Assembly (NCBI GenBank): GCA_029265975.1
Contig: JAJUGN010000002.1
Span: 24,089 to 88,088 of the forward strand
Length of the DNA stretch: 64,000 nt
Direction: 5' to 3'
From: Clostridiales bacterium
Lineage (GTDB): Bacteria > Bacillota > Clostridia > Oscillospirales > Oscillospiraceae
Part shown: positions 4,584 to 53,252 of the stretch, one piece after another
How the letters are laid out: every line of letters begins with the position of its first letter
Position numbering within the stretch: the stretch's first letter is position 1
Notes under the pieces: generated by a model
Told to the model about the DNA's origin: nothing
The model's input: only the letters and a program-made list of their open reading frames with translations
Databases searched by the model: none
Translations under genes and position numbers: made by a program

Positions 4584-6068
4584 ATGATTTTGGATTATAA
4601 ATGGTTTGATGAAATGGAATCGCGCATACCGCGCGGGGAGGTCCGCACGCGTTTCGCGCCGAGCCCGACCGGATATATGCATGTAGGAAACCTCAGAACG
4701 GCCCTTTACGCTTACCTTATAGCCCGCCGAAACGGCGGCAAATTCCTGCTGCGTATAGAGGACACCGATCAGGGCCGTTATGTGGAGGGAGCTACCGACG
4801 CGATATACGGCACCCTGAAAAAATGCGGCTTGAGCCACGACGAGGGGCCGGACATCGGAGGCCCGGTCGGCCCGTACGTCCAGACGGAGCGGCGCGACAT
4901 CTACGCGAAATACGCCGAGCTTCTCATCATGAAGGGAGGCGCTTACCGCTGCTTCTGCGGGAAGGACGAGCAGGACGACGCCGAGCAGGGCGATAAGGGC
5001 GTAAAGAAATACGACGGCCGCTGCAGCCGCCTTTCAAACGCCGAAATTGAGGAAAGGCTGAGGGCGGGCACGCCTTACGTCATCCGCCAGAAGATACCGG
5101 CGGGCTCCACATCCTTTACCGACATGGTTTTCGGAGACATAACCGTTGAAAACGAAACCCTGGACGATAACGTCCTCATAAAGTCGGACGGCCTGCCGAC
5201 GTACAACTTCGCAAACGTGGTCGACGACCATCTCATGGGCATAACCCATGTCGTAAGAGGCTCTGAATATCTCAGCAGCACCCCGAAATACAACCTGCTT
5301 TACAAAGCCTTCGGCTGGGATATCCCACATTACATCCACTGCCCTCCGGTAATGCGGGACGCCCATAACAAGATGTCGAAGCGCCACGGCGACCCGTCGT
5401 ACGAGGATCTGCTCGCTCTCGGATACCTTTCGGAGGCCGTTGTGAACTATGTGGCGCTGCTCGGCTGGAGCCCCGGCGGAGAGCGCGAGCTGTTCACGCT
5501 TTCGGAGCTTGCGGAGGTGTTCGATATAAAGGGAATATCCAAGTCGCCGGCGATTTTCGATATTACCAAGCTCAGCCACTTCAACAGCGAGTATATAAGG
5601 TCGATGAGCCTTGAGGCTTTTCACGAGCTCGCGCTGCCTTATATACGCTCCGCCGTCAAAAAGCCGGACGCGGATACGATGGCGATAGCCGAAATTCTGC
5701 ATCAGCGCTGCGAAAGGCTGACGGACATACCCGAAAAGGTGGATTTTTTTGACGCGCTTCCCGAATACGACGCCGAGCTTTATGTGCACAAGAAATCCAA
5801 AACCGACCGGGCGGTTTCCCTTGAAATGCTGAAAACCGCTTTGCCGGAGCTTGAAGGGATAGATTCCTGGACACTCGAAAACGTTCAGGGCGCGCTTTTC
5901 GGGCTTGTCGAGAGGCTCGGAGTCAAGAACGCCACCCTGCTCTGGCCGCTTCGCATAGCCGTATCCGGCAAAGCGGTCACGCCCGGGGGCGCGGTGGAAA
6001 TATGCTATATCCTGGGCAAAGAGGAAACCCTTGCGAGGATAAGGGCGGGAATCGATAAATTGTCATAA
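4584..6068 (+). CDS. gltX: Glutamyl-tRNA synthetase
   Basis: [52 protein letters not shown] (KMSKR) motif. Confidence 0.97.
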
Positions 6069-6115
6069 GTTTTCAGGAATAAATCACCCATTTGCGGAAA
6101 ATCTATCCGTAAGGG

Positions 6116-7491: not shown

Positions 7492-7741
7492 AAAAACCGG
7501 GATGCGTCGGCATCCCGGTCTTCCGGCTGTCAAAAAAGCCCAAAGGGCTTTTTTGACAAAGGGGGCGCATGACGGCCGCTCTGCCGCGCCCGTCATGAGA
7601 GGTGTCATTTCCGACGTACACGCCGCCGGAAATGACAGATTTGACTTTTTTCCGCCATTCGCGGCGGAAATTCTGCGAAGCTTTTTTGCTGTAAACAAAT
7701 TCTTTGAAAAGCTAAAAACCGGGATGCGTCGGCATCCCGGT
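7492..7741. repeat. Copy A of the 187-bp dispersed repeat (element 7527-7713, inverted relative to B-D), flanked by a 28-bp direct repeat of the local terminator (7492-7519 and 7714-7741)
   Basis: Reverse complement aligns with 14419-14605, 53033-53219 and 30536-30677; the flanks share aaaaaccgggatgcgtcggcatcccggt. Confidence 0.9.
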
Positions 7742-7788
7742 TTTTTATTCCAAAAAACAAAATTAAGGCCTTGTATATCTTTGGGCCA

Positions 7789-14390: not shown

Positions 14391-14635
14391 AATAGCCCCG
14401 CCGAAAGGGCGGGGCTACAGCTTGTCAAAGAACTTGTTTACAGCAAAAAAGCTTCGCAGAATTTCCGCCGCGAATGGCGGAAAAAGTCAAATCTGTCATT
14501 TCCGGCGGCGTGTACGTCGGAAATGACACCTCTCATGACGGGCGCGGCAGAGCGGCCGTCATTAAGCCCCCCTTGTCAAAAAAGCCCTTTGGGCTTTTTT
14601 GACAGTCTGATAACCCCGCCCTTTCGGCGGGGCTA
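14391..14635. repeat. Copy B of the 187-bp repeat (14419-14605) between two copies of the local terminator hairpin, the right one loop-inverted
   Basis: Left tagccccgccgaaagggcggggcta (14393-14417), right taaccccgccctttcggcggggcta (14611-14635). Confidence 0.9.
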
Positions 14636-30492: not shown

Positions 30493-30677
30493 AAAAGCAA
30501 CGGACGCGCCCGACAAAGCGCGTCCGTTGCTTTTTAGCTTGTCAAAGAACCTGTTTACAGCAAAAAAGCTTCGCAGAATTTCCGCCGCGAATGGCGGGAA
30601 AAAGTCAAATCTGTCATTTCCGGCGGCGTGTACGTCGGAAATGACACCTCTCATGACGGGCGCGGCAGAGCGGCCGT
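30493..30677. repeat. Copy D (3'-truncated) of the 187-bp repeat (30536-30677), preceded by a terminator hairpin (30493-30535)
   Basis: Matches copies B and C from agcttgtcaaag to gcggccgt, then diverges into the end of the 30687 CDS. Confidence 0.88.
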
Positions 30678-40715: not shown

Positions 40716-40789
40716 ACAATAATGCAAGTCGATGACAACTTGCAAACACTTATCGCTCAAAACGCTCTGATACACCGCAGGCTTGTTTT

Positions 40790-40958
40790 GAAAAGATACG
40801 AGCAGGTCTCCTGACTTAAGATCATCGCTTCAAGGCGCCTTCTCGGGCTTTCGCCCAATGGCATATACCTGGAAACTCCCTAACACAGTGACGGGTTCGT
40901 TCCGGATTTTAACCGGATTCCCTATTAATTCCCGAAGGAAACTCTGTATCCTGATATG
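40790..40958 (-). promoter_or_regulatory. Cobalamin riboswitch upstream of btuFCD-cobN-chlI-chlD
   Basis: Reverse complement contains agggaatccggttaaaatccggaacg...gtcactg...taagtcaggagacctgctcg (B12 box). Confidence 0.93.
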
Positions 40959-41094
40959 TATTCAATTTTAGACTGATTTTTACACCAGTATAATTTATAT
41001 ATCATACTGCATATAAAGTCAATACCGTCAAGCAAAAACTTTAGCGTTGCCCGGCGGCAAAAAAGTAAAATATTACGCTATTTTAAGGAAGATG

Positions 41095-41123: not shown

Positions 41124-41139
41124 ATACACAAACAGAATA

Positions 41140-41338
41140 GCTTTTGAAGTGTCCCCTTTGGCGCAGGGCCTTTGGGGAAGAATAGGGAATCGGGTGAGAA
41201 TCCCGAACGGAACCGCCGCTGTATGCGTTTTTGGCCGCGCTCGTCGACGAAAGTCGGTCACTGGGAAACTGGGAAGGCAGAGCGCGCGCCGCAGGACGAT
41301 CGTCCTATAAGCGCGAGTCAGAAGACCTGCTTTGAAAC
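41140..41338 (+). promoter_or_regulatory. Cobalamin riboswitch 1 (plus strand)
   Basis: gggaatcgggtgagaatcccgaacggaaccgccgctgta...ggtcactgggaaactgggaaggc...gcgagtcagaagacctgc. Confidence 0.95.
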
Positions 41339-41385
41339 CGCTCCGCCTGCTGGTGCCTTATGGCGGCGCACATCGGATTTGCAGA

Positions 41386-52296: not shown

Positions 52297-52310
52297 TAAT
52301 CAAAGAAATT

Positions 52311-52512
52311 GAATAGCTTTCAAAGTGTTCCTCAAGGCGCAGGGCCTTGGGGGAAGAATAGATAATCGGGTTAGAATCCCGAGCGGAACCGCCGCTGTAT
52401 GCGCGAGGCCGCGCTCGTCGACGAAAGTCGGTCACTGGGAAACCGGGAAGGCAGAGCGCGCGCCGCAGGACTAATGTCCTATAAGCGCGAGCCAGAAGAC
52501 CTGCTTTGAAAC
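52311..52512 (+). promoter_or_regulatory. Cobalamin riboswitch 2 (plus strand), near-identical to riboswitch 1
   Basis: ataatcgggttagaatcccgagcggaaccgccgctgta...ggtcactgggaaaccgggaaggc...gcgagccagaagacctgc. Confidence 0.95.
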
Positions 52513-52551
52513 AAGCCGCCCGCGGCATTCGGGATCGGCGCTGTTTTGCAG

Positions 52552-52999: not shown

Positions 53000-53252
53000 C
53001 TGAAGCGGAGCGCCTTATCGGCGCTCCGCTTCAGCTTGTCAAAGAACTTGTTTACAGCAAAAAAGCTTCGCAGAATTTCCGCCGCGAATGGCGTAAAAAA
53101 GTAAAATCTGTCATTTCCGGCGGCGTGTACGTCGGAAATGACACCTCTCATGACGGGCGCGGCAGAGCGGCCGTCATGCAACCCCCTTGTCAAAAAAGCC
53201 CAAAGGGCTTTTTTGACAGTCTGAAGCGGAGCGCCTTATCGGCGCTCCGCTT
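53000..53252. repeat. Copy C of the 187-bp repeat (53033-53219), flanked by a 32-bp direct repeat of the local terminator (53000-53031 and 53221-53252)
   Basis: Both flanks read ctgaagcggagcgccttatcggcgctccgctt. Confidence 0.93.

Follow-up and report, generated by a model that had tools for sequence, protein, structure and literature searches.

Why should the terminator hairpin between ypeB and a phosphoribosyltransferase gene be present twice, with a structured repeat lying between its two copies? In the window, i.e., the whole 64-kb stretch of DNA that was analysed, a 28-nt hairpin (AAAAACCGGGATGC-GTCG-GCATCCCGGT) occurs twice in direct orientation, at 7492-7519 and 7714-7741, and the block that separates the two recurs at three other places, 14418-14609, 30535-30677 and 53032-53223, each time on the + strand. 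The sequence-only reading of this stretch had proposed a MITE-like element of 187 bp that takes a whole intrinsic terminator as its target and duplicates it, and had suggested a link to the IS1182 family. The length of 187 bp is correct for the interval from AGCTTGTC to GACAG, but the full element measures 192 bp once the outermost CAG/CTG are counted. Likewise, all three recurrences are real, but the one at 30535-30677 is truncated and lacks its right end. The internal palindromes are present as that reading described them. The features of the four copies are as follows.

7493..7522, no strand: copy A, terminator hairpin on the ypeB side, first copy of the duplicated target
7523..7714, - strand: copy A, 192-bp element with slight degeneracy at both ends (AGCTTTTCAAAG and GACAGCCGG)
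7715..7744, no strand: copy A, second terminator hairpin (phosphoribosyltransferase side)
14393..14417, no strand: copy B, left hairpin, loop GAAAG
14418..14609, + strand: copy B, element
14611..14635, no strand: copy B, right hairpin, loop CTTTC, inverted relative to the left one
30493..30534, no strand: copy C, the single remaining (left) terminator hairpin
30535..30677, + strand: copy C, truncated, with the left end and the core but no right end
53003..53031, no strand: copy E, left 29-nt target duplication AAGCGGAGCGCCTTATCGGCGCTCCGCTT
53032..53223, + strand: copy E, full, both terminal repeats as in the consensus (CAGCTTGTCAAAGAAC...GGGCTTTTTTGACAGTCTG)
53060..53154, + strand: copy E, structured core, hairpin P1 followed by hairpin P2 with loop GCGUGUA
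53188..53218, + strand: copy E, subterminal perfect palindrome TGTCAAAAAAGCCC-AAA-GGGCTTTTTTGACA, which includes the right terminal repeat
53224..53252, no strand: copy E, right 29-nt target duplication, identical to the left one

The subterminal palindrome of copy E looks like a bidirectional terminator, and a sigma-70 promoter scan over the same copy found none. The window also contains three cobalamin riboswitches, at 40784-40962 (-), 41130-41348 (+) and 52306-52522 (+), the two on the + strand being about 86-95% alike and forming the window's other long direct repeat. In a related genome, a lysine riboswitch (L074:110-287, -) is found close to a small element whose ends are of the TGTCAAAAAAGCCC type.

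The full element (CAGCTTGTCAAAGAAC...GGGCTTTTTTGACAGTCTG) is non-coding, has short imperfect terminal inverted repeats (CAGCTTGTCAAAGAA / CAGACTGTCAAAAAA) and, at 192 bp, could not encode a transposase of the 469-540 aa that we found elsewhere; it is therefore not classed as an autonomous IS1182 insertion sequence. Its own genome (G000; an assembly of 1.97 Mb in 75 contigs, 89% complete) contains at least 111 left ends with up to three mismatches, against none for a reversed-pattern control, and 47 exact right ends, so that the element makes up about 1% of the genome. Since several contigs begin or finish within a copy, this count is probably too low. The median pairwise identity across 38 readable full-length copies from this genome and the sister genome G003 is 94%, and phage and plasmid collections searched with the element returned no match. 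The copies sit at gene ends, most commonly between convergent genes (13 of 30), and next to co-directional genes their orientation is unbiased (6 vs 7). Predicted folding of the + strand as RNA is strong (z = -6.8). On this evidence and on what follows, the element is very probably (we would put it at about 0.9) a non-autonomous, high-copy MITE that an IS1182-family DDE transposase moves in trans.

The flanks of the copies bear most directly on this reading. Among 33 copies with both flanks readable, 24 show strong duplication (score of at least 15) and 28 show duplication at a looser threshold (score of at least 10), whereas pairing the left flank of one copy with the right flank of another gave no case among 1,056 at either threshold, the maximum score being 7. 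The duplication comprises a complete stem-loop, and each locus has its own, whereas the 192 bp inside are about 94% alike. The proposal that the flanking hairpin is derived from the host and doubled on insertion thus holds, and about 30 loci with different doubled hairpins bear out the whole terminator as the target of a MITE-like element. The duplication, as measured in 25 copies, spans 23-40 nt (median 29), a wider range than the 28-32 bp or so that had been expected from the window, its edges coincide with the foot of the stem with an overhang of 0-1 nt in nearly all, and its length varies with that of the stem. Because the length tracks the stem, it is the hairpin that determines where the cuts are made; a fixed stagger cannot yield such a pattern.

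We would like to note that a few full copies (e.g., L028, L062 and L053) have unlike hairpins on their two sides or no clear duplication, and that L059 has merely a short palindromic duplication. Recombination between copies or assembly joins are a likely source of the unlike hairpins. Additionally, the loop is inverted between the two hairpins of copy B (GAAAG/CTTTC) and of L121 (GA/TC). This counts as evidence against the scheme proposed below, because simple gap repair predicts no such inversion, and it suggests that one hairpin is occasionally inverted during or after insertion.

Mobility was examined by comparison with G004, the closest relative, which is about 86% identical across the compared genes. 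At two orthologous sites (G000 C5 and C46), G004 lacks the element: the flanks are joined without interruption and a single hairpin stands between them, so that the terminators without insert that the sequence-only reading had suggested looking for do exist. In G004, the terminators of copy A, copy E and the C69 copy are instead occupied by another small element (ends CAGACTGTCAAAAAACCTGAG / TTTTTCGACACGCTCAG), which points the other way and again stands between two copies of the hairpin. This indicates that these terminators were hit independently in two species. About 4 of the 11 terminator-like intergenic hairpins in the window are occupied by the 192-bp element, and repeated hits on one terminator are thus unsurprising. 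Together with the dependence on stem length, the two empty sites and the independent hits in G004 favour duplication of the whole terminator. The ypeB contig of G004 is also MAG record JAJUHC010000011, locus L147. The genomes G001-G003 of the genus were considered as empty sites for copy A as well; they have a single terminator after ypeB but a different downstream region, and are analogous only.

G004 also harbors a second MITE family (L147:3370-3563, C11, and L158:1324-1519, C27) with ends CAGACTGTCAAAAAACC / TTTTTCGACACGCTCAG, which has only the P2 hairpin of the core in common with our element and doubles terminators too.

Full-length elements in the order were located through their similarity to an IS1182-type C-terminal segment. 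The terminal repeat CAG(N)CTGTC(A/G)AA(A/G)AA is common to our element and to full-length IS1182-family elements in G234, G186, G069 and others. The eight insertions in G234 (ends CAGCCTGTCGAAAAAG / CAGATTGTCGAAGAAC) have duplications that, where found, comprise a whole hairpin of 20-33 bp, and single elements in G186, G069 and G060 have whole-hairpin duplications of 31, 34 and 35 bp, respectively; the autonomous IS1182 elements of the order thus share the target choice and the duplication of our element, with whole hairpins of 20-35 bp. In the NCBIfam IS1182 model, which has a cut-off of 270 bits, two representative transposases reach 400 and 388 bits; both carry PF13751, PF05598 and PF01609. 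The IS1182 link, which had been offered as an inference, now rests on evidence: elements that pass the family model have the same terminal repeat and the same whole-hairpin duplications. In G037, a decayed and broken IS1182-like element has ends (CAGACTGTCAAAAAACTCC / GGGGTTCTTTGACAGTCTG) nearly identical to those of our element, each adjoining a hairpin. In four IS1182 elements (L097, L108, L114 and L137) the two ends adjoin different hairpins, perhaps through recombination between copies or assembly joins.

Full insertion sequences with the ends of our element, which the sequence-only reading had thought worth looking for, are present in the same order, but no intact one was found in the genus. 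Searches with PF13751 and NF033551 detected no IS1182 transposase in the element's own 89% complete assembly, and no intact one was found in the four other genomes of the genus, where G004 has a broken remnant with stop codons, ending ...CTGACAGTCTG, and G003 a weakly matching gene. The autonomous partner in the genus appears to be lost, decayed or unassembled; its transposase may be gone, or may be missing from the draft genomes. Nevertheless, a cognate transposase in the same genome is not a defining property of a MITE, which can outlive its partner.

One could instead regard the locus as a regulatory or terminator module of the host that evolved in place, with paired terminators around an attenuator-like RNA and no mobility. 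The constant position at gene ends and the strong fold (z = -6.8, RNA, + strand) speak for such a module, as do interior hairpins conserved with covariation (described below), but the outer hairpins differ at each locus around an inner 192 bp that is about 94% alike, and the orientation relative to co-directional genes is unbiased (6 vs 7). The empty orthologous sites and the ends matching IS1182 terminal repeats refute it as the main explanation, and we consider it very improbable.

For the MITE mobilised by an IS1182-family transposase, the following course of insertion is proposed. The transposase would recognise the imperfect terminal repeats CAGCTTGTCAAAGAA / CAGACTGTCAAAAAA and would choose its target by shape and not by sequence, namely the stem-loops of intrinsic terminators, which may be presented as a cruciform or as a single-stranded hairpin. 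DDE enzymes join the 3' ends of the element to the target, and the gaps are then filled. If the 3' ends attack the 5' feet of the stem-loop, strand transfer at the base of the stem on both strands would leave single-stranded gaps spanning the whole hairpin, and once these are filled every insertion would end with a complete stem-loop on either side. As both hairpins survive, termination is likely retained; the original downstream T-tract stays with the second hairpin, and the first copy of the hairpin is separated from it, as is directly visible in the sequences (e.g., in copy E). Retained termination would render insertions nearly neutral and permit a high copy number, and jumping of the element probably rarely damages genes.

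For a target in the cruciform state, Wan et al. 2017 (PMC5678879) depicted three possible results. In the one that they propose for IS1272, joining occurs at the 3' feet and the stem-loop is lost, whereas joining at the 5' feet (Fig. 13, pathway b) would duplicate the whole stem-loop and was given as a hypothetical alternative. The insertions described here match pathway b.

IS1272 and TnSha1 of the IS1182 family in Staphylococcus also choose stem-loops by shape, with no primary sequence requirement, and hit terminators (PMC5678879, PMC4923244). If our element behaved in the same way, it would have replaced the target stem-loop and the flanking hairpins would belong to the element itself. A precedent is found in G004, where the site orthologous to the L002 copy (L253, C12, ~5924-6083) has a different small element with ends GGGGATGTTGCAAAAC / GTTTTGCAACAGCCCC in the expected place of the terminator hairpin, with no doubled hairpin around it. 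The ends of this small element are similar to those of L092, a PF13751 element (GGGGCTGTTGCAAAAC). The site looks like hairpin replacement as in IS1272, and stem-loop replacement is a reasonable description of this small element. In the 192-bp element, on the other hand, both hairpins are intact, near-identical and specific to the locus, and they match the one hairpin present at the empty orthologous site, whereas the two Staphylococcus studies (PMC5678879, PMC4923244) describe loss of the target hairpin without any duplication. IS1272 and TnSha1 delete or replace the hairpin; our element keeps and doubles it, and so IS1272-type replacement does not describe it and is less probable still than a module evolved in place.

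Least probable of all is movement by another hairpin-associated system (REPIN/RAYT, IS200/IS605 or the remnant of a group IIC intron), since these also use hairpins or terminators but are not known to have IS1182-type terminal repeats or long target duplications, while the full copies of our element possess both ends and, for the most part, a 23-40 nt duplication. The element resembles REPIN/RAYT and BIME repeats in being a high-copy extragenic palindromic repeat, and differs from them in lacking RAYT-type ends and in having IS1182-type ends and a long duplication of a host hairpin.

The element has its closest counterparts within the palindrome-targeting IS1182 family, as its terminal repeats and whole-hairpin targets match the IS1182 elements of the order. 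In Clostridium botulinum group III, ISCbo5, also of the IS1182 family, is reported to enter gene-end hairpins that serve as transcription stop signals (PMC3098183); compared with ISCbo5, our element is only 192 bp long, has no transposase gene and has a far higher copy number. With prokaryotic MITEs in general (review PMC10969869) it shares short length, non-coding sequence, terminal repeats and target duplication, as well as high copy number, a structured transcript and an intergenic location. Where that review mentions terminators, it places terminator-like sequences inside the elements and does not present terminators as targets, whereas here a whole intrinsic terminator is the target.

The middle of the element is occupied by a core of about 95 nt with two hairpins. 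Of 297 genomes of the order searched with a covariance model, 35 contain this core; they belong to 22 genera and often have it in multiple copies. A conserved 5' segment of the GCCTCGCAGAG type is followed by hairpin P1 and then by hairpin P2. In P2, one pair has a near-invariant U, and the loop is mostly GCGTGTA or ACATGTG (in RNA, GCGUGUA or ACAUGUG). The core persists in different genera and in several of the order's families, with compensatory substitutions altering its P2 stem. Over 65 distinct sequences, pairing in the 13-pair P2 helix amounts to 99.4%, nine of the pairs show changes on both sides, and the covariation score is 0.56, vs 0.20 +/- 0.01 in shuffles and at most 0.12 with the helix slid. 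The alignment of 65 sequences was fitted to the model, and an initial MAFFT alignment of 13 sequences gave the same picture. A third helix closing the core was dropped, as only three pairs could be drawn by eye. No Rfam family scored above the gathering threshold for the element copies or their relatives.

The lack of orientation bias (6 vs 7) argues against the core acting as a cis-acting mRNA leader. The core motif was sought inside autonomous IS1182 loci and not found there, so the core cannot be regarded simply as a transposase element cut short. In G042 and G066, from one other family of the order, it lies within longer hairpin mosaics without clear IS1182 ends; many core copies (L202-L221), with several different P2 stems within one genome, are present in these two genomes. 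We tentatively suggest, at slightly less than even odds, that the core is an undescribed motif spread by a terminator-targeting transposon, acting either as an expressed RNA, whose function would be cellular or selfish, or as single-stranded DNA whose structure is needed for mobilisation.

Hairpin targeting by IS1182 relatives was already known (PMC4923244, PMC3098183, PMC5678879). Our search of openly accessible papers, which leaves priority somewhat uncertain, retrieved no MITE family described as duplicating whole terminators and no description of the core of about 95 nt. The copies of the element provide many natural cases of shape-directed insertion in which the entire target hairpin is duplicated, the outcome proposed on paper as pathway b in Fig. 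13 of PMC5678879, as opposed to the replacement seen for IS1272. Since the length of the duplication follows that of the stem, the reading of DNA shape by a DDE transposase at the feet of a cruciform becomes directly testable. The covarying core is a candidate for a new structured RNA or single-stranded DNA motif. Finally, the occupation of about 4 of the 11 hairpins in the window, with a complete hairpin left on either side, suggests a safe-haven strategy.
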